The position numbers were made by a program, and so were the translations under genes. A stretch of DNA of 33,033 nucleotides from a virus. The stretch is taken from positions 1 to 33,033 of the IMG/VR virus record IMGVR_UViG_3300017758_000060; one strand, 5' to 3'. Below the pieces are notes generated by a model. The model was not told the origin of the DNA. It searched no databases and worked only from the letters and a program-made list of their open reading frames with translations. This document shows, piece after piece, positions 6,373-30,387 of the stretch (position 1 is the first letter of the stretch; every line of letters begins with the position of its first letter).

Positions 6373-7345
6373 AATATTTAGAAGGACAGTAAAAGATAGG
6401 AAAAGAGGTGCAAGTTATCAACTGCTCACACACATGGCAGAAGGTATAACAGCCTGTGGCGATAATCCCATAATGGTTAATGAAAAGTTAGAAGGAGAAT
6501 GGAGAGATAATGAAATGGAGCCAACGGCACCAATCGGTTGTATGTTTGGCTACGGAGGTAAGAACCAACCACATCATACAAAAGGACGTAGACGAGACCT
6601 TGTAGAACGTGCAAAGAAAAAAGGCATTTACATTATTACATTCGACGGTGGCATACTGTCTAGTTTTGGCAACACCATAACACACCCTAAACATCACTGG
6701 CGTGTAAGTTTATATTCTCCAATGAATAACGGAAACTTCTTAAGTGACAACAGTCCAGACGATCGTTGGAACATGATGAAAAATTTATGGAACATAAAAT
6801 ATGAGCCATGGCGTAAATCAGATCAAAGCGATCCTATACTGTTTGGCTTACAACCTAAAGACAACTGGAGCATGGACGAACTTGACCCGATAGATTGGTT
6901 TCATAGTGTGTATGAAAAATTAAGACCCATCACTGATCGTAAGTTTTTAATACGTCCACACCCAAATCACATGGCACAAATGATAAACAGGAAAGAAGAA
7001 TTTCCAAAGGACTGTGAACTGTTAGAAGGTCCTGCACACTTTGTAGGAGACGAGAAAAAGTACTATAGATTTAACTTCCAAGAAGCATTAAGTAATTGTC
7101 ATGCTTTTGTTACTCACAATTCTACTGCCAGCGTCGATTCCTGCGTTCGTGGAATCCCTACCTTTGTTACCTCAGATCTTGCACTTTGTTGGCCAGTAGC
7201 AAATAAAAATTTAAACAATATAGAAACACCCGAATATCCTGATAGAACACAGTGGGTTCACGACATAGGATATAAACTGTGGAGTACAGATGAAATTCGA
7301 AGTGGTGTGGTGTTCAAAAGATTCAAAGAGAAGTTAGGATTATAA
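6362..7345 (+). CDS. GT-B-like glycosyltransferase, family copy 3 of 4
   Basis: At 327 aa this is the longest of the four related proteins. Recognisable blocks are FGLQPKDNWS, LRPITDRKFLIRPHPNH, HAFVTHNSTASVDSCVRG, IPTFVTSD, LNNIETPEYPDR and DIGYKLWSTDEIRSG. The HNST..VDxxxxGIP segment is reminiscent of the donor site in capsule-type GT-B enzymes. The N-terminal part (IYIITFDGGIL; HWRVSLYSP) differs from the other copies, which suggests a different acceptor. It overlaps the preceding gene by 11 bases, and its TAA overlaps the ATG of the asparagine synthase-like gene. Confidence 0.65.
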   Translation: MDVEIFRRTVKDRKRGASYQLLTHMAEGITACGDNPIMVNEKLEGEWRDNEMEPTAPIGCMFGYGGKNQPHHTKGRRRDLVERAKKKGIYIITFDGGILSSFGNTITHPKHHWRVSLYSPMNNGNFLSDNSPDDRWNMMKNLWNIKYEPWRKSDQSDPILFGLQPKDNWSMDELDPIDWFHSVYEKLRPITDRKFLIRPHPNHMAQMINRKEEFPKDCELLEGPAHFVGDEKKYYRFNFQEALSNCHAFVTHNSTASVDSCVRGIPTFVTSDLALCWPVANKNLNNIETPEYPDRTQWVHDIGYKLWSTDEIRSGVVFKRFKEKLGL

Positions 7346-9069
7346 TGTGTGGAATATACGGCATAACAGATCACGATTCAAACTTTATTCAACAATACGT
7401 CACTACTTGTAAACACAGAGGACCAGACGGATCCAAAGTTTGGTGGAATCCTGAATACAAGATGACGTTAGGTCATAACTTGTTAAGTATCATGGCCAAT
7501 CCAAATTTATCAACACAGCCATGGAAAACACCCAAAGGAAACACTCTGGTGTACAACGGAGAAATATTTAATTACTACGAACTTAAAAAAAAATATAGAA
7601 GCGAATTTGCAGGAATAACAGGCTGTGATACTGAGCTACTTGCTTGGGGACTTGACGAGTTTGGCTTAGACTTCATAGATGAAATAGATTCTATGCACGG
7701 CTTTGCATACTACAAACATAAAGAAGAACAAATAGTGTTATCTAGAGACCATGCAGGCATAAAACCTTTGTACTATGCAGAAATAGATCAAGGTCTTGTG
7801 TTTGGTTCCGAACTGAAAGGTATGTTGGATAAAGTTCCTGGTGCAAGAAAGTTAGATAAACTTGCATCAAGTTTCCAAAGTAGAACAGGTTGTAATCCAT
7901 TACGTAATACTTTATTTTCTGGGATCAAACAACTACTGCCAGGTGAAACATTAGTATACAGTTTAAAAGATAAAAAATTTATAGACAGCAAGAGAATATA
8001 CATTGTACCTAACGGAAATAAAAAATTTAATGCAGAGGAATTCAGGCAACAAGTTAACAATACTGTAAAACGTTGTGCTATTGGTCAAAGAAAAATTGGA
8101 GTTTTCCTAAGTGGTGGATTAGACTCAAGTGTTGTTGCATATGAACTTGGCAAGTTGCAAAAAATTAATACATTCACAAATCGTATGTATCCTGAAGTAC
8201 AAAGTGATGAGGACTACAACAGTGATGCCAATGCGGCAAAAGTTTTAGCAGACAAAGAAGGATATACACACCACGAAATATTAATTACACCCAAAGAGTA
8301 CATGACAGCATGGGACCAATCCATTTATTATATGGAACAGGTAAATTTCAATCCTAGTATGGCCATGTATTGTTATACAAATAAATTTATGGCAGACCAA
8401 GGGATAGTAGTGACAATGGCCGGAGATATGGGAGACGAACTGCTGGGTGGATATCCAAAATATCAAAAAATGTTTTACGGCACTCTTCCCAAAACTTGGA
8501 GAGAGGTACTCACTTTATGGTTACAACGTTTGAAAAGACCTAAAAATTTTACAAAAGATATAATTGCAGACGAACTGCTATTGGACGAACTGGAAAATTG
8601 TTATTCGGATAAGTTATGGAACCCAGATGATCCTGTTGGTTCATACATGGCCTTAGATTGTGTTACACAATGTCCTGCAGAATTTTTCAGTAGAAACGAC
8701 ACGTATGGAATGGCATACAGCATGGAAGGGCGTTTTCCATTAGCAAGTAAAACATTCATGCAGTACTGTTTAGATATTCACACAAGGCATAAACTAAATC
8801 AATCAGAGACTAAGATTATGATAAGATCAGCATACAACGGAATATTACCAAATCAAATTATAAACAAAACAAAAACAGGGTGGACCGTGCCCGTAGGCTT
8901 GTGGCTTACAAATAAAATGGACAAAGATCTTGAAAACTTTTATACCAAAGAGTTAGGATACGAAAAATTGAAAGTCGTGACTTCTAGCCAAAAATCTGCT
9001 AAAATGCTTATACCAGACTTAATATTAAAACATTGGAAAAAAACATACAAGGTAATAGATGCATCATAG
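7345..9069 (+). CDS. asnB: Asparagine synthase-like glutamine amidotransferase
   Basis: A 574-aa two-domain enzyme. The N-terminal Ntn-glutaminase domain starts MCGIYGI, with catalytic Cys2. Glutamine-site segments follow: HRGPDG (24-29), YNGEIFNYYEL (70-80) and GCDTE (93-97). The C-terminal ATP-pyrophosphatase domain has the PP-loop LSGGLDSS (255-262). Classical AsnB converts Asp and Gln to Asn. Relatives in O-antigen loci instead amidate uronic acids on sugars, and the flanking transferases and sulfotransferase make that alternative attractive. It is complete, with all key residues present, and is coupled to both neighbours by start/stop overlaps. Family is certain; the substrate is open. 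Confidence 0.92.
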   Translation: MCGIYGITDHDSNFIQQYVTTCKHRGPDGSKVWWNPEYKMTLGHNLLSIMANPNLSTQPWKTPKGNTLVYNGEIFNYYELKKKYRSEFAGITGCDTELLAWGLDEFGLDFIDEIDSMHGFAYYKHKEEQIVLSRDHAGIKPLYYAEIDQGLVFGSELKGMLDKVPGARKLDKLASSFQSRTGCNPLRNTLFSGIKQLLPGETLVYSLKDKKFIDSKRIYIVPNGNKKFNAEEFRQQVNNTVKRCAIGQRKIGVFLSGGLDSSVVAYELGKLQKINTFTNRMYPEVQSDEDYNSDANAAKVLADKEGYTHHEILITPKEYMTAWDQSIYYMEQVNFNPSMAMYCYTNKFMADQGIVVTMAGDMGDELLGGYPKYQKMFYGTLPKTWREVLTLWLQRLKRPKNFTKDIIADELLLDELENCYSDKLWNPDDPVGSYMALDCVTQCPAEFFSRNDTYGMAYSMEGRFPLASKTFMQYCLDIHTRHKLNQSETKIMIRSAYNGILPNQIINKTKTGWTVPVGLWLTNKMDKDLENFYTKELGYEKLKVVTSSQKSAKMLIPDLILKHWKKTYKVIDAS

Positions 9070-17712: not shown

Positions 17713-17825
17713 TGTTTTATATTCGAAAATTTTTAACAAAGAATAACTTACTTGGTATCATTTACATAGGTGTATTCATATATCTACTAGCACTTCTATT
17801 AAATAATTTGCAAGGAACAATATAA
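17712..17825 (+). CDS. 37-aa single-pass membrane protein
   Basis: This short frame reads MFYIRKFLTKNN, then a hydrophobic stretch (LLGIIYIGVFIYLLALLLNN, residues 13-32), then LQGTI. Basic residues before the helix predict an N-in orientation. Its ATG follows directly on the upstream stop (TGATG) and its TAA overlaps the ATG of the next gene (TAATG). It therefore fits the coupled cassette precisely, and this is the main reason to accept it. Function unknown; small phage membrane proteins often act on the host envelope. Confidence 0.6.
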   Translation: MFYIRKFLTKNNLLGIIYIGVFIYLLALLLNNLQGTI

Positions 17826-18415
17826 TGCCTGATGTAGATATAGATTTTTTTGACAGAGATAACACGCTAAAACTTTTTAAGCATACACCTGCCACTATGA
17901 TCAAGGATGGTAAATCTGAGAAACATAAAACAGGAGTTTACTTTCATGCTGTTCCGGAACATCCAGTAACAGGACACGCAAGTCTCGATTATAAAAATGC
18001 AGAGGACCGAGGGTACTTCAAAATAGATTGCTTGAATGTGAACATATACAAGGATGTCAAGTCGGAACAAGAACTTGTTGAGCTTATGATACAGGAGCCG
18101 GACTGGGATATGTTGAAAGATCCAAAAGTGGTAGAAAACCTTTTTCACCTAAATGGCCATTTTAACATAGTATCCAAGTTGGAACCTAAAACTATAGAAC
18201 AACTTGCGGCTGTGTTAGCAATAATAAGACCTGCCAAAAGGGGACTGATGTACAAGGATTGGACAGATATAATCAAAGAAGTTTGGATCAAACCAACAGA
18301 CGGTAGTTACTTCTTTAAAAAATCACACGCAGTGGCATATGCTCAAGCAATCGTTGTGCAGATGAATTTGATGAACAGAGCTAAATATAGTTTTGATGCA
18401 CCATCAAAAAACTAA
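17825..18415 (+). CDS. Miniature DnaE (Pol III alpha)-like protein
   Basis: A 196-aa protein that reads like a compressed bacterial DnaE palm. PDVDIDF (2-8) matches the PDxDxDF motif, with Asp5 and Asp7 equivalent to E. coli Asp401 and Asp403. HKTGV (34-38) matches the KHAGGV block. GYFKIDCL (63-70) matches GLVKFDFL, with Asp68 in the place of Asp555. LEPKTIEQLAAVLAIIRP (119-136) matches the ALFRPGP helix, and FFKKSHAVAYA (163-173) matches FNKSHSAAYA. The PHP domain, the rest of the fingers, and the clamp- and tau-binding regions are absent. DnaE-type enzymes synthesise DNA; whether so small a form can is unknown. It follows the 37-aa membrane gene by TAATG overlap. Confidence 0.7.
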   Translation: MPDVDIDFFDRDNTLKLFKHTPATMIKDGKSEKHKTGVYFHAVPEHPVTGHASLDYKNAEDRGYFKIDCLNVNIYKDVKSEQELVELMIQEPDWDMLKDPKVVENLFHLNGHFNIVSKLEPKTIEQLAAVLAIIRPAKRGLMYKDWTDIIKEVWIKPTDGSYFFKKSHAVAYAQAIVVQMNLMNRAKYSFDAPSKN

Positions 18416-18921: not shown

Positions 18922-18941
18922 TATAAATACTGTTAAATATG
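18922..18941 (+). promoter_or_regulatory. T4-type late promoter (TATAAATA) plus a second TAAATA box
   Basis: An exact T4 late consensus TATAAATA lies at 18922-18929, and a second box TTAAATAT at 18933-18940, upstream of the structural gene at 18946. With the usual late spacing, start sites would fall near 18935 and 18945. The second lies one base before the ATG. There is no Shine-Dalgarno. Confidence 0.6.
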
Positions 18942-22903: not shown

Positions 22904-22937
22904 CACATTTTTAATTGGTGAGAGCCGTGGATGTTGG

Positions 22938-22943
22938 TAAATA
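22938..22943 (+). promoter_or_regulatory. Possible late promoter box TAAATA with strong ribosome-binding site downstream
   Basis: GGTAAATAA at 22936-22944 contains a TAAATA core. A start near 22949 would give a leader of about 38 bases carrying AAGGAG at 22975-22980, ahead of ATG 22987. The 83-base spacer holds no gene. This is the only transcription unit here with a real leader, a strong ribosome-binding site and a terminator. Confidence 0.4.
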
Positions 22944-22986
22944 ACTGCAACGTTTTAAATTAAATTGAAATACAAGGAGAAATTCA

Positions 22987-23910
22987 ATGAAAAACATCAT
23001 ATGGTTAATAGCACACCAACCAGAAAGACTGTTCCTAAGAACAGCAAAAGCGTTTGCAAAAATGCTTGAGAAAGAAACTAACGAAATCAAAATTGAGATA
23101 CTGACAACTGAACAATACAAGGAAAAATACGATCCTTCTTTCAGCAGAGAAAAGATTTTTGATTTAGTTAAAGATAACGTAATTCAAATGTCTCAGACAG
23201 AAGTATGGGAACTTGAAAGTTTGACACATGACAAAAACTGGCTAGTCTTTGACATGCCATGGTTATTCAAAAGTCATAGTCATGCAAGAAGAGTTCTTGA
23301 AGGTAAGATCGGTGCACAAATGAATAAAAGGTTAGCAAAACAGAGCGGAGTTAGAGGTCTTGCTTACACTTATTCAGGTGGATACAGATGTGTAGGATCA
23401 AAAGTTCTAATCAAAAACTTATCTGAGTTGCAAACAAGAAAACTAAGAGTTAACTCTAATCCAGTAACACAGGACTATTGGAAGTCGCTTGGTGTTGAAG
23501 TAACAAATCAAAATGTACACTTTGGTAGCAACGATCCCGTATTACCTGAGGACATACATGGTAAAGATACAACATACATCAGATACGAAAAAGCAGATGC
23601 ATGGTTACACACAGAACACTCTTTATTTTTAACAAACATTCTAGCAAGTGAGAAATTCTTTAACACTCTATCTGCAGACATGCAAGAAACATTTAAAAAA
23701 ATTGCATTCGAGGCGGCTAGACTAGAAAGAAAATGGTCTCAAGAAGACGCTGAAAATTTTGTTGAAACAGCAAAAGAAAGAAATGTACCAATCACAGAAT
23801 TATCCCAAGAGGACAAAGAAGTGATGAAAGAAAAATCAAAAACTGTATACGAAAAATGGTCTAAGGTTTTCTTCCCTGGTTTAATTGATGGTATCAATAA
23901 ATTAGCATAA
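22987..23910 (+). CDS. TRAP (DctP-type) solute-binding protein without signal peptide
   Basis: A 307-aa protein with the DctP ground plan: FLRTAKAFAKMLEKETNEIKIEIL (about 16-39), VIQMSQTEVW (about 65-74), VFDMPWLFKSHSHARRVLEG (about 87-106), GVRGLAYTYSGGYR (about 120-133) and LRVNSNPVTQDYWKSLGV. Then come FLTNI and a helical C-terminus. TRAP binding proteins carry organic acids in the periplasm to DctQM. Here the sequence starts directly at the first mature-type strand, with no signal peptide. It should stay in the cytoplasm or be packaged. The usual GVVDG-E substrate segment is not recognisable (IHGKDTTYIRYEKA instead). It has its own ribosome-binding site and terminator. Confidence 0.7.
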   Translation: MKNIIWLIAHQPERLFLRTAKAFAKMLEKETNEIKIEILTTEQYKEKYDPSFSREKIFDLVKDNVIQMSQTEVWELESLTHDKNWLVFDMPWLFKSHSHARRVLEGKIGAQMNKRLAKQSGVRGLAYTYSGGYRCVGSKVLIKNLSELQTRKLRVNSNPVTQDYWKSLGVEVTNQNVHFGSNDPVLPEDIHGKDTTYIRYEKADAWLHTEHSLFLTNILASEKFFNTLSADMQETFKKIAFEAARLERKWSQEDAENFVETAKERNVPITELSQEDKEVMKEKSKTVYEKWSKVFFPGLIDGINKLA

Positions 23911-23929
23911 TCTTTTTATATATTACAAG

Positions 23930-23957
23930 AAAGGCGGCCACGGTCGCCTTTTTTTGT
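23930..23957 (+). terminator. Rho-independent terminator after the TRAP-type gene
   Basis: AAAGGCGGCC and GGTCGCCTTT pair with one G-T wobble around a short loop and run directly into a tract of Ts. This is a textbook intrinsic terminator and the only clear one in the window. It isolates the TRAP-type gene from the following operon. Confidence 0.85.
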
Positions 23958-23975
23958 GGCTATTAGAGTGTAAGT

Positions 23976-24577: not shown

Positions 24578-25194
24578 ACCTAGAAAAAATATGGCATCAG
24601 TTCTCCCCTAGGCAGTACAGTTATCTAGGCGACATTGTTGGAAATTCAAGTGCCAAGAGTGTTTGTGAAATAGGAGCGTTCTGTGGCGGCGTTGCTAGGG
24701 CAGTATGGCAAGGAATAAAAGATACGGATAAAGAATTATATCTTATAGACAACTATGCATTTCTTCCAGAGCGTTTTAGAAAACATTTCTTCAAAGCAGT
24801 AAAGAAAACTATATCAAACAGCGACAGGATACACATGCTGTTGGAAAACAGTCACGAGTACGACTGGACAAAGCACGACTTCTTAATATTTTCTCATGCG
24901 GATTTTGATCATATGGAAAAAGATTTTGACCGACTGTTAGATTCAAAAGTAAAATGGGTAGCACTCGATTTGCCCAAGGGTTGTTTCAAGAGAACAGCAA
25001 AAATGCTAGATGCAATTACAAACAAAAAATTATTCCCCAGTTATTATGTCGACGGTATGATAATCTGCGGGCCGACGACTCCTTGCACTTTGCCTACACA
25101 AGAAGGAACTTTTCTAGGACACAAGGTAAGATATGTTGAAAAGAAAAAAGGTTCATACAACAAAGCAGTAGAAGACATAGTAAAAAATTTGTAA
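24574..25194 (+). CDS. Class I SAM-dependent methyltransferase-like protein
   Basis: A 206-aa protein. SVCEIGAFCGGVARAVW (about 29-45) is a motif I-like Gly-rich SAM loop. KELYLIDNYAFLP (about 53-65) ends in the acidic residue expected to hold the SAM ribose, and HDFLIFSHADFDHMEKDFDRLL (about 99-120) and VKWVALDLPKGCF follow in Rossmann order. This fits the Methyltransf_24-like group, which often acts in sugar and natural-product loci. Substrate unknown. It is coupled to the oxygenase-like gene upstream and to the radical SAM gene downstream (TAATG). Confidence 0.6.
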   Translation: MNLEKIWHQFSPRQYSYLGDIVGNSSAKSVCEIGAFCGGVARAVWQGIKDTDKELYLIDNYAFLPERFRKHFFKAVKKTISNSDRIHMLLENSHEYDWTKHDFLIFSHADFDHMEKDFDRLLDSKVKWVALDLPKGCFKRTAKMLDAITNKKLFPSYYVDGMIICGPTTPCTLPTQEGTFLGHKVRYVEKKKGSYNKAVEDIVKNL

Positions 25195-26369
25195 TGACTA
25201 AATGTAATCGGCCAACGTTGGATGTAACAATATCACCTGACGGTAATTTTAGAATTTGTTGTTACGGTACTACGTTGGGAAACATCGAGGGACAAACCAT
25301 ACGAGAATTTTTCAACAGTGATGCAGTAAAAGAAATCAGCAATACTTTGAACAGTGGCACACGTCATTCTTACTGTTCTGCATGTTGGAACCTCGAGGAC
25401 CTAGGACATGATTCTTATAGATTAGTAAGCGAGCCTTACAAAAGCGAAGGAGGATTTCCTGCCATGCTTGATATAAAATTTAATAATATTTGCAATCTTG
25501 CTTGTAAAATGTGTGACCCTGTGTCGTCAAGCAAACTTGCTACCGAATGGAAACAACTAGGGTGGACAGATCAAAACACACCTTATCTAGACACAAATTC
25601 AAAAACAATATTGCCGGATTGGCAAAATACAAATTATCAAACTAACAAAATTAATAAGATATGGGATGAAATTATAGACAATATAAAATTTGTAAAAAGA
25701 ATAAAGTTTACAGGAGGCGAACCATTCATGACCAAAGAAATATTACAATTTCTTAAACGTATTCCTGTTGAGGACAGAAAACATATAGATCTTGCATGGA
25801 CCACAAACGGTACACAAGACTTGAGTATTTGGGAATCGACTCTGCTGACTTTTAAAAAAAATAGGATAGGAATAAGTTGCGATGGCGAGCAGGACACATA
25901 CAACTACATAAGATATCCTGGTACTTGGACAGAATGGCTAGAAAGTTCAAAAAAAATAATGGACAAATATCAATCACATATAAATTTTACAGTCACAGTT
26001 TTTAATATCTTTAATTTAAAAAAATTTGTTTCCTGGGCAAAAACAAACGGTTATCTGAACAAACTTAGATTTGCATATGAAAATATTCCTCTAGTATATG
26101 CTCCAATGGTACTGCCTAGATACCTACGTGTAAGAGCGGTAGAAGACATAATGTATGCAATAAAGAACATGGACAAGTCAGAAGTAAGAATGCAACTACG
26201 TGCTATTGCAGATCACTTGCACAGTATCAACGATGATGTACATGACAAACACTGGCATCATTTTCTCAAGATCACACACCAACAAGACAAGCACAGGGAT
26301 ATGAGCATAGCAAACATATGGCCCGATGTGCCAGAAATTCGAGAGCGTAAATTACCAAATACAGCGTAA
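25194..26369 (+). CDS. Radical SAM protein with N-terminal twitch/SPASM-like cysteines, copy 1
   Basis: A 391-aa protein. CNLACKMC (C100, C104, C107) is the CxxxCxxC cluster motif for the SAM-cleaving [4Fe-4S] centre; FTGGEPFMTKE (GGEP 174-177) and DLAWTTNGTQ follow as expected. Before it, C4, C22, C23, C61 and C64 (ICCYG, CSACWNLEDLGHDSYR) look like an auxiliary iron-sulfur site of the twitch/SPASM type placed N-terminally. Such enzymes modify peptides, sugars or tRNA by radical chemistry. It follows the oxygenase and methyltransferase genes with tight coupling. Substrate unknown. Confidence 0.85.
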   Translation: MTKCNRPTLDVTISPDGNFRICCYGTTLGNIEGQTIREFFNSDAVKEISNTLNSGTRHSYCSACWNLEDLGHDSYRLVSEPYKSEGGFPAMLDIKFNNICNLACKMCDPVSSSKLATEWKQLGWTDQNTPYLDTNSKTILPDWQNTNYQTNKINKIWDEIIDNIKFVKRIKFTGGEPFMTKEILQFLKRIPVEDRKHIDLAWTTNGTQDLSIWESTLLTFKKNRIGISCDGEQDTYNYIRYPGTWTEWLESSKKIMDKYQSHINFTVTVFNIFNLKKFVSWAKTNGYLNKLRFAYENIPLVYAPMVLPRYLRVRAVEDIMYAIKNMDKSEVRMQLRAIADHLHSINDDVHDKHWHHFLKITHQQDKHRDMSIANIWPDVPEIRERKLPNTA

Positions 26370-26452: not shown

Positions 26453-26629
26453 ATGGGCATACACTACGACTACAAGAGCACCAGGGGTGACAAGAAATTA
26501 CGTAAGCAACAGGAACGTGAGGAGCGAAGGCGTAAGAAGAAGCAGACAACAGTTGCCAAGCAAGACGAGTACACTGTGCCAGAAGACGTGGTGCTGACTC
26601 TGGACATGATCACGGACCCCAATAAATGA
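26453..26629 (+). CDS. 58-aa charged hypothetical protein next to a radical SAM gene
   Basis: The frame starts MGIHYDYKSTRGDKKLRKQQ, continues with a very basic stretch (EREERRRKKKQ), and ends with an acidic/hydrophobic tail (YTVPEDVVLTLDMITDPNK). GGGAG lies seven bases before the ATG, and the TGA overlaps the ATG of the next radical SAM gene (ATGA), so it is a good gene by context. It shares the raised GC content of that gene. A precursor-peptide role for radical SAM modification is conceivable but unsupported: there is no Cys, and no typical leader/core boundary. Confidence 0.6.
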   Translation: MGIHYDYKSTRGDKKLRKQQEREERRRKKKQTTVAKQDEYTVPEDVVLTLDMITDPNK

Positions 26630-27642
26630 TAAATCAGAGACTGTTTGACAGATACAACATCGACACCAACAAGGACCTCAAGTTAAAGAACATGTGTCCA
26701 CGTCCCAAGGACACAATACTGATCGACAAGATGGGATCGTGTTACGCCTGTGAATGCCAGTCATGGTTGCCACAGAGCATAGGTAACCTGCAGATCAAGT
26801 CCTTGTCAGACATCATAGGCAACGACATGCACCAGCACTTGCAGGGATCGATCGCGGATGGCACGTACCGTTACTGCAACGAACACCAGTGTTCCTATCT
26901 CAAGAGTTCTGTATTGCATGGCCAGCCGGATCGCATACAGCACCTGAGATTGGCCATAGACGACAGTTGCAATCTGCGTTGTCCCAGTTGTCGGAAGGGC
27001 CTGGTATTCCACAAGGAGGGCTCCGCATACAACCTGGGCATCAAACTCGCGGACAGCATCAACGACTGGTTGTACGATTACCCGCACCCCATACAGGTGC
27101 ACATAGGTTCGGATGGTGATCCATTCGCTTCACACGTGTACAGGCACTTCATGGAGCAGACCCCCGAGCGTGACAACATCAAGTACAGCATACTGACCAA
27201 TGCACTGATGATCAAAGATTTTTCTCATCGCGTTCCCTACGTGATCCGGAACCTCAAGGAACTGGGAGTGAGCATAGATGGTGCCACCAGGGAGACCTAT
27301 GAGAAACTGCGACTGGGTGGCAGGTGGGAAAAGATCAACGAGAACCTCCAACACATCTCTGAACTGAAGGACAAGCACGGATTCCGATTCATCATGCACT
27401 ACGTGGTACAGAAGGACAACTACCACGAGATGGAAGACATAGTGCTGTTGGGTGAAAAGTACAACGCCGATCGTGTTTGGTTCAGCAGGATACAGGACTG
27501 GAACACATGGGGCAATTTCGCTGAACACAACATATTCGACACGCAACATCCACAGCACAACGATTACAGGACATGCCTGGACAAACTTGTCAAACTAAAC
27601 AGCAATATAGTAGAAGAAGCGACCCTAAGACAACTGCATTAG
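26626..27642 (+). CDS. Radical SAM protein with N-terminal cysteine cluster, copy 2 (GC-rich)
   Basis: A 338-aa protein. CNLRCPSC (C115, C119, C122) is the radical SAM cluster. Upstream cysteines C24, C39, C42, C44, C84 and C89 (SCYACECQSW, CNEHQC) suggest an auxiliary cluster. The GGEP position reads GSDGDPF, a departure from the other two copies. LGVSIDGATRETYEKLR is a typical radical SAM strand. Codon choice is strikingly GC-rich compared with neighbours, which points to recent acquisition together with the 58-aa frame. The substrate is not visible. The last 18 bases overlap the opposite-strand gene. Confidence 0.85.
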   Translation: MINQRLFDRYNIDTNKDLKLKNMCPRPKDTILIDKMGSCYACECQSWLPQSIGNLQIKSLSDIIGNDMHQHLQGSIADGTYRYCNEHQCSYLKSSVLHGQPDRIQHLRLAIDDSCNLRCPSCRKGLVFHKEGSAYNLGIKLADSINDWLYDYPHPIQVHIGSDGDPFASHVYRHFMEQTPERDNIKYSILTNALMIKDFSHRVPYVIRNLKELGVSIDGATRETYEKLRLGGRWEKINENLQHISELKDKHGFRFIMHYVVQKDNYHEMEDIVLLGEKYNADRVWFSRIQDWNTWGNFAEHNIFDTQHPQHNDYRTCLDKLVKLNSNIVEEATLRQLH

Positions 27643-28810: not shown

Positions 28811-29357
28811 ACTTCTAGATGCTGATTGCAGAGTGGTGAGGATCAAAAACGAATGGGTCTACCCTATCTTCAAGAATGCTTTCACAAGTCTAGAGACAGT
28901 GTCTGAACAGGAAATATTCAATGAGGAAATTTCACAATGCCAAAGCATAGTGGTGTTCCTCAGAAACCAAGAACAGCGATTTGTTACAGGGGTTGGAGAA
29001 TACTTAGACAACAGCAACAACATGAATCGTAGTCACACAGTGAACGGCATGCCAGGGAAGGTACAGCAAGAAATGATAGATAAAATTCTTGATGGACAAA
29101 TTTTGGACAGGCATTTCTGTCCACAGGCAGTATGGCTGTTGCATCTTTCTAAATATTTTCAAGGCACAGTTTTCATAAAAGATATGTCACAGGCAAAACA
29201 CTACACACCGTTAACGATGAAGGCAGGCAAATATATAAATTTTAAATTAAAGGTGCCGGAGTTCTATTTGTCAGATGATAAAAAATTAGAGAAGTTCATA
29301 GGAAAAAAAATTAACATACAGTCGATTGTAAAGGAGTTTGACAGTGTATTGTCCTAG
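28794..29357 (+). CDS. Sulfotransferase-like (family 2 type) protein
   Basis: A 187-aa protein. WVYPIFKNAFTSLE (about 21-34) resembles the 5'-phosphosulfate loop of sulfotransferase-2 proteins (PIxKNAxTS). SIVVFLRNQEQRFVTGVGEY (51-70) resembles their FVRDPxxRFxSGY strand and helix, though the Asp-Pro pair is replaced by Asn-Gln. That change in the PAPS 3'-phosphate region could mean altered or lost activity. It sits between the SDR and a radical SAM gene, overlapping both. A diverged P-loop protein with another role is the alternative. Confidence 0.5.
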   Translation: MKRWIKLLDADCRVVRIKNEWVYPIFKNAFTSLETVSEQEIFNEEISQCQSIVVFLRNQEQRFVTGVGEYLDNSNNMNRSHTVNGMPGKVQQEMIDKILDGQILDRHFCPQAVWLLHLSKYFQGTVFIKDMSQAKHYTPLTMKAGKYINFKLKVPEFYLSDDKKLEKFIGKKINIQSIVKEFDSVLS

Positions 29358-30387
29358 ACTAAAACACTTTGTAAGGCTTAACCAAGATGGTTCTATAGGC
29401 AAGTGCGGACACATGGTCAATGCAGTAGGATTCAAAACATTTGACGAACTAGACAAAAGCAAATGGCTAAATGACCTCGAGGACACTATGTCAAAGGACG
29501 AGTGGCCGGAGGAGTGTGTGCGTTGTAAACAAACAGAAGAAATAAACGGAGAAAGTGTAAGGACCAAAAGCATAGACAGACATAAAATATTACATCCACG
29601 TAAGGATGATTACCTTGTTGTTGGGGGTGTGTTGGACAACATATGTAACAGTGCTTGTCAGTCTTGTAACGCGGGCCTGAGTACCAAGATAGGTAGTCTA
29701 CAGTCAAAGAAATACACACGTGTGAACAACTACGAAACTTTTTGGAAACTACCACAGAACAGGATACTGGAAGTAGATGTCAACGGAGGCGAACCCACCG
29801 CAAGTAAGAATTACAAAAAAATTTTAGCCAACCTTCCTGTTAACACAAAAATAGTAAGGATGAACACCAATGGTTCAAGAATGATCAAAGAACTTGAGGG
29901 TATACTTAGAAACAGAACAATGGTCATAGTAACTTTGAGCTTTGATGGTACAGGTGACGTGCATGACTATGTACGTTGGCCCATTAAATGGAAGAACTAC
30001 ATTAAGAGTGTTGTCGCATATAAAAATTTACAAAAACAATACCCATTGTTGAAATTAAACTGTTGGACAACTGTAAGCAGTTTGAACGTTGAGAACTTAC
30101 CCGGCATATTAGATTTTGTAACAGAACAAGGGTTGGATCACAACTGGGCGTTTTTAAATGACCCAGATGCCTTGAATGTAAAATATAAAAACAAGTTTAC
30201 TGTAAGTGCTAAAAAAAAATTAAGCAAGTCTTCCTACAGTGTTTGTAGAGATATAGCAAAAAAGATAGCAGTCGACCAAGACAATAGCAAACTGCTTGAA
30301 TACTTTATTAAGAGACAGGATACGTTGCGTAATATATCTATAGATGATTATTTTAACTTAGAACCTAGTTGTTTTAAAAACAGTTGA
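29344..30387 (+). CDS. Radical SAM protein with N-terminal twitch/SPASM-like cysteines, copy 3
   Basis: A 347-aa protein. CNSACQSC (C101, C105, C108) is the cluster motif, with VNGGEPTASKNY (GGEP 148-151) and VRMNTNGSRM after it. N-terminal C3, C21, C58 and C61 (CGHMVNAVGFKTFDEL, ECVRCKQTEEINGESVR) parallel copy 1. I choose GTG 29344: AAGGAG at 29331-29336 is seven bases upstream, whereas the in-frame TTG at 29338 would leave only one base. It overlaps the sulfotransferase-like gene, and its last 40 bases overlap the SGNH gene on the other strand. Substrate unknown. Confidence 0.85.
   Translation: MYCPRLKHFVRLNQDGSIGKCGHMVNAVGFKTFDELDKSKWLNDLEDTMSKDEWPEECVRCKQTEEINGESVRTKSIDRHKILHPRKDDYLVVGGVLDNICNSACQSCNAGLSTKIGSLQSKKYTRVNNYETFWKLPQNRILEVDVNGGEPTASKNYKKILANLPVNTKIVRMNTNGSRMIKELEGILRNRTMVIVTLSFDGTGDVHDYVRWPIKWKNYIKSVVAYKNLQKQYPLLKLNCWTTVSSLNVENLPGILDFVTEQGLDHNWAFLNDPDALNVKYKNKFTVSAKKKLSKSSYSVCRDIAKKIAVDQDNSKLLEYFIKRQDTLRNISIDDYFNLEPSCFKNS

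Follow-up and report, generated by a model that had tools for sequence, protein, structure and literature searches.

At positions 22987 to 23910 on the plus strand of the window, by which we mean the whole 33,033-nucleotide stretch of the viral record IMGVR_UViG_3300017758_000060, lies an open reading frame running from ATG to TAA that encodes a protein of 307 amino acids. Pfam profiles, an AlphaFold2 model, structural alignment with VIA-align and selection in relatives indicate that it is a full TRAP-type (DctP) solute-binding protein without a signal peptide. The protein matches the Pfam profile PF03480 (DctP) with an E value of 1.1e-31 and 110.6 bits against a cut-off of 23.4, and the NCBIfam model TRAP_S1 with 82.8 bits, above the cut-off of 50; its score against the narrower NCBIfam model TIGR00787 (dctP) was 90.1 bits, below the cut-off of 175. 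A sequence search of the PDB returned 63 matches at E ≤ 1, and the 60 matches listed are binding proteins by name; no match of the window protein to a virion family was found among the matches listed. The AlphaFold2 model, for which an alignment of 23 relatives was the input, has a pLDDT of 93.8 and a pTM of 0.90, and its top structural matches are the TRAP receptors 4pbq (Z 32.5) and 7bbr (Z 32.4) over about 290 residues. The alignment to 4pbq, with 290 residues at an rmsd of 2.2, indicates that the predicted model has the two-lobe fold of TRAP receptors throughout its length. Both the profile search and the predicted fold thus bear out the original prediction that the protein follows the DctP plan. 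It has the sequence family and the whole fold in common with the DctP solute-binding proteins (PF03480; e.g., SiaP, 7bbr, 4p47), from which the phage proteins differ by the lack of a signal peptide, a modified GVVDG-E segment and, in most members, loss of the ligand arginine; by alignment, the window protein keeps this arginine, but there is no permease on its record.

TRAP receptors are periplasmic proteins, and it is their position outside that makes transport one-way. A working TRAP receptor would reach the periplasm by means of a signal peptide, which the window protein does not have. Strand 1 occupies residues 2–8 of the AlphaFold2 model, and the open frame of 313 codons leaves just 6 codons between the preceding stop and the ATG; therefore, no signal peptide is encoded by the gene, no upstream start could add one, and the claim that the protein begins directly at the first mature strand stands. 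The absence extends to 30 of 30 distinct full-length phage members, a count that excludes the partial member L017, whose N-terminus is similar (L numbers denote loci and G numbers records of viral contigs, G004 being a bacterial MAG). Hydrophobic N-termini are present in all 12 exported controls, namely two phage DctP, five phage TctC, four cellular DctP and a cousin from Candidatus Kaiserbacteria. By simple hydropathy, which is not a signal-peptide predictor, the maximum over 12 residues within the first 36 was 0.30–1.51 in the 30 phage members versus 1.72–2.82 in the 12 controls. One record (G306) holds two members, and at L134 there are an upstream ATG and hydrophobic codons, with the ribosome-binding site, by eye, preceding the start that yields no signal peptide. 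The strongest control is an internal one: at each of L039, L084, L086, L096, and L098 an exported DctP occurs together with at least one member without a signal peptide, and lack of export is therefore specific to the latter family (hydropathy was calculated for 2 of the 15 distinct exported DctP rows, the rest being judged by eye). Discovery of an exported form had been named as evidence that would speak against the original prediction. The cell-encoded Kaiserbacteria cousin does carry an N-terminal hydrophobic anchor or signal, but none of the phage members found has one, and the cousin is an exported relative rather than an exported form of the phage protein.

The gene stands in its own promoter-terminator cassette, as had been proposed, and this cassette, conserved across the window clade, looks similar to the one of a related phage's head operon. 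On the plus strand upstream of the ATG are found a GTAAATA box similar to the late promoters of T4-like phages (22937–22943), with NTAAATA upstream in relatives and the same box before head genes; a conserved leader motif, GTTTTAAATTAAATT (22952–22966), present in the window clade and with one exact match in the window; and an AAGGAG ribosome-binding site (22974–22979), in the same place in window-clade loci. Downstream, also on the plus strand, fold energy and relatives argue for an intrinsic terminator at 23931–23955, composed of a hairpin (about 23931–23950) and a T run. The region 23911–23965 folds at -18.2 kcal/mol (z -4.17), with 0 of 200 shuffles equally stable; a GGCGGC...GTCGCCTTTTT hairpin is also found 3′ of the gene in relatives, and nearly the same terminator follows the capsid gene of G008. 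A simple terminator scan did not pick up the hairpin, and a sigma-70 promoter scan gave 10 matches against 8.9 expected, which is the chance level. The strong AAGGAG and clean terminator of the original prediction are both in place, and its assertion that this is the only gene with a real leader was roughly right, in that no other gene has a comparable long AAGGAG leader, but TAAATA boxes do occur shortly upstream of the starts at 17825, 18946, 23987, and 28289. The boxes at 18934, 23976, and 28277 lie about 10 nt before the starts, so that the messages, in contrast to that of the DctP gene, would have little or no leader.

An NTAAATA box lies at most 100 bp upstream in 18 of the 23 family genes examined (it is absent for L012, L018, L019, L032b, and L039b), while locus-wide densities sum to about one expected, a background that takes the whole-locus density instead of upstream regions and so overstates the enrichment. 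The consensus of the T4 late promoter is TATAAATA, from which the window box differs by reading GTAAATA, a form that also precedes head genes of related phages. In G008, the head operon runs from a 346-aa gene through the head protease and, at the place of the scaffold, a phrog_10922 protein to the capsid, and GTAAATA and AAGGAG stand upstream of its opening gene. In L019, an NTAAATA box is placed before the portal, scaffold, and capsid genes, and the family gene, located between portal and head protease, has no box of its own. Two findings count against the late-promoter reading: TAAATA is depleted across the window (25 found vs. 41.7 expected), and late-promoter prediction failed in pelagimyophages, according to the portion of the source available to us (PMC7029224). 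From the signals around the gene, we consider late transcription likely, and the conserved cassette resembling that of the head operon supports the earlier suggestion of production in quantity to the extent that the protein is probably abundant. The first 14 bases of the leader motif (GTTTTAAANTAAAT) occur once per record in five of five records searched, which suggests gene-specific control through this motif; for the same reason, the motif was rejected as a promoter common to other genes.

With regard to the ligand site, R154 of the window protein falls, when four solved receptors are aligned with it, on the arginine of their K(I/L)R strand, and we read it as the equivalent of SiaP Arg-147 from the alignment to these four PDB chains, not to SiaP itself. 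Of DctP-type receptors, 98% have this arginine, which selects carboxylates, as stated in the accessible part of PMC4646407. Across the 30 phage members, position 154 is R in 11, K in 2, and another residue in 17; the six full-length members of the window clade have R (4/6) or K (2/6), and a second type, recognized by WVLAHEP and similar segments and found beside phage TRAP genes and elsewhere, has R in all seven. Given this pattern, most members are unlikely to be classic carboxylate receptors; this does not extend to the window protein. Twenty-five residues are invariant in 30 of 30 members, including W6, H10, P12, T128-G132, R199, H211, F214, T216, E247, and R248. With the pocket judged from strands and conservation only, the invariant H10, T128-G132, R199, and H211 are consistent with a retained binding cleft, and it is likely that the binding site is conserved for a ligand that is not always a carboxylate. 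The GVVDG-E ligand segment had been described as missing; it has lost its typical form but is altered, not absent, and reads DIHGKDTTYIR in the window protein and GVDGKDTTYIR or ADAVETTYLR in relatives. In SiaP, the residues docking on QM are given as D58, S60, and E172 in the text available from PMC9352664.

One scan of viral contigs found relatives of the window protein at 34 loci, with 31–83% identity and on contigs of up to 148,928 bases, and scans with phage DctM yielded further family members. The Gp23 capsid protein was found in 6 of the 15 records searched, including G008 of the window clade, and record G007, on which both L019 and L078 lie, carries a T4-type terminase and tail sheath besides Gp23, the latter at L019. 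No Gp23 was found on the window's own 33-kb fragment; its matches to UvsY, a helicase, a primase, and a DnaB-like helicase fit a T4-like phage as the source. A DNA-level search of the gene region in 50,697 phage records gave no match, protein searches of the same records gave 3 and 8 weak matches at 20–25% identity, mostly faecal fragments or bacterial-looking records, and the L018 protein had no match there. Other DctP-like proteins encoded by phages are phrog_31178 and the BFVD entries "TRAP transporter solute receptor DctP/TeaA" from uncultured Caudovirales phages; these are annotated with unknown function or a family name, and the BFVD entries are half-length pieces.

The dN/dS ratio is 0.07–0.29 in nine pairs with unsaturated silent sites (between the window and L003 genes the differences are 0.90 at silent and 0.105 at replacement sites, a saturation too high for a ratio), which points to maintenance of the phage family by purifying selection. 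The tree separates the cluster of 30 phage proteins from six other DctPs, four of cellular origin and two exported ones of phages. The Kaiserbacteria cousin (L042) falls among the phage members as a long branch with weak support (85/71), so that a single phage clade is not settled by the tree and one single loss of the signal peptide is possible. Apart from its N-terminus and long branch, this cousin has the segments RWLIAHQP, TYSGGYR, and NHSLF in common with the phage family; the single genome scan turned up no other cell-encoded cousin, and among 286 genomes from its phylum it was the only match. Its gene (L042:4640-5695) sits among repeated paralogous gene pairs in the MAG. Plasmid DctPs were found at 22–30% identity.

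The neighbourhood of the gene varies. In window-clade members it is usually followed, by eye, by a methyltransferase-like (F6) and a hydroxylase-like (F19) family, for which the copies tested gave no Pfam match. The neighbours in other clades are TctC receptors with signal peptides, a DUF2061 membrane protein, and AMP-binding and PP-loop-like proteins. Phage clusters of PP-loop-like (by eye), AMP-binding, and TctC genes at L023:11156-12477, L032:11237-14571, and L039:12625-16094 resemble a small pathway of biosynthesis or modification. Uptake genes are found on the records of related phages: DctM on 4 of 16 records searched, TctC on 9 of 19 (the bacterial MAG G004 among them), and a Gram-negative porin (PF13609) on 6 of 23 phage records. 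The DctM clade comprises 25 viral loci on contigs of up to 244 kb, and members without a signal peptide occur in eight of nine DctM-bearing records, which were hand-chosen from these loci. The link of the family to uptake genes is striking, and it is confounded by record choice and habitat. No DctM, TctC, or porin was found on the window's record, a 33-kb fragment, and the 50,697 phage records gave weak matches only, three for DctM and one for TctC.

Both L039 and G007 encode DctQ, DctM, and an exported DctP, and these complete TRAP transporters of T4-like phages (L039:6805-9803; L078:13248-16020) had no match in the open-access literature searched. Their exported DctPs belong to the same Pfam family and occur on the same phage records as the members without a signal peptide; they differ in having signal peptides, in following DctQ-DctM directly, and in forming a distant branch. 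Record G007 also encodes a TAXI-type receptor (Pfam NMT1_3) that carries a signal peptide and has a DctM-like permease of its own downstream (L078:2791-5041). Phage TctC receptors with signal peptides are found at L026:4372-5349, L034:14383-15276, and L030:12331-13236, and porins at L039:18866-19777 and L003:11907-12923 (minus strand), the L003 relative having a signal peptide and grouping with the L039 porin in neighbour clustering, with no match to the Pfam model.

We favour, tentatively and at a little short of an even chance, the reading that the family branched off from the TRAP (DctP) solute-binding proteins, is specific to phages, and stays in the cytoplasm, where it is made late as a ligand trap or buffer for a small metabolite. 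The gene would be transcribed late and at a high level together with the head genes, and its product would fold in the cytoplasm, close on a small metabolite, and act as a trap or buffer instead of delivering its ligand to a permease from the periplasm. According to the accessible part of PMC4646407, the receptor gives the TRAP permease its direction from outside; therefore, a receptor confined to the cytoplasm cannot do so. The simplest reading of the DctP fold and family, the uniform absence of a signal peptide, selection, the invariant residues, and the box and terminator shared with head genes is that the protein is abundant late in infection and binds and retains a metabolite in the cytoplasm, and the uptake genes on the same records were also counted in its favour. 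It may buffer an imported solute, keep a host metabolite or signal out of use, or take part in assembly, and the sponge, sensor, and virion component of the original prediction all stay candidates. Against it, the receptor arginine is gone in most members, so that binding may have been given up; the window record lacks an uptake gene; and the position among head genes in L018 and L019 is left unexplained. The protein is probably part of a wider solute-acquisition programme, because related phages add porins, exported TctC and DctP receptors, and whole TRAP permeases. A fuller version, which we regard as a long way from likely, is that T4-like phages have an uptake line of their own (porin, exported TctC/DctP, DctQM), with the late receptor-derived protein as its intracellular inner end, holding a metabolite in the doomed cell after export and, in most members, carboxylate recognition were given up.

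The main rival, unlikely but with a real chance, is a head-associated role, in which the DctP fold would have been taken over for the capsid, the core, or morphogenesis and the protein, produced along with the capsid genes, would be packaged or used in assembly. It ranks first since the expression signals are shared and the gene sits amid head genes in L018 and L019, between the portal and the protease-scaffold-capsid genes; the lack of an export signal would suit it too. However, other clades have the gene among metabolic or transport genes, a nitroreductase-family gene occupies the same position in L018/L019, and the conserved residues would seem to resemble a binding cleft, not an assembly surface. 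It is improbable that the protein is a sponge that binds a host signalling molecule of defence or stress and thereby blocks a defence system: in favour are a cytoplasmic ligand-binding fold in a phage and, as a changed ligand would lead one to expect, the fact that 17 of the 30 members have unusually lost the carboxylate arginine, with K in 2 more; against it, late-type expression comes late for counter-defence, and the genes nearby serve uptake or the head and include no known counter-defence gene. Slightly less probable still is an enzyme evolved from the receptor fold and working with neighbouring metabolic genes. The invariant polar residues (H10, Y129, R199, H211, E247, R248) and the AMP-binding and PP-loop-like neighbours would fit such an enzyme, but the neighbours vary from clade to clade and, to our knowledge, no catalytic motif is known for the DctP receptor fold. 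We give little credence to the idea that the protein is a genuine TRAP receptor for a host or phage DctQM and gets into the periplasm at lysis or by some path that needs no Sec signal; the full receptor fold of the model, the retained R154, and the DctQM of some related phages are in keeping with it, but the same phages supply other receptors with signal peptides and there is no known route to the periplasm. Lastly, a decayed host gene without function, to which the missing signal peptide and altered ligand residues might point, is hardly credible and already disfavoured by the selection result, with the reading frame unbroken in all 30 distinct full-length copies, dN/dS well below 1, and the cassette conserved.

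A gene common to aquatic T4-like phages is thus built like an outward-facing nutrient receptor but without the export tag, and the existence of a large and conserved phage family that keeps the fold and drops export suggests a receptor that works, in a virus, on the other side of the membrane. Cyanophage PstS, the phosphate receptor, is exported. It is likewise a solute-binding protein encoded by phages, of a different family (viral pstS in PMC6359870, in the part available). Viral tctA, pstS, and amt and phage curli genes are mentioned in the accessible portions of PMC6359870, PMC7029224, PMC4164917, and PMC12615777, and in the open-access literature searched, as far as its text was accessible, we found no report of viral TRAP systems or receptors without a signal peptide. 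If real, these phage genes would mean that viral manipulation of host metabolism goes further than enzymes and individual receptors and takes in entire uptake systems.

Other genes of the window also merit mention. A protein of 196 amino acids (window 17825-18415, and L003:3310-3900) matches the PHROG "DNA polymerase" phrog_11778 with an E value of 4.4e-65 and is, by eye, a short stand-alone piece resembling a DnaE-like polymerase. Positions 7345-9069, 25194-26369, 26626-27642, and 29338-30387 of the window encode one asparagine-synthetase-like protein (by eye; phrog_16728) and three radical SAM proteins, one of which has a SPASM domain.
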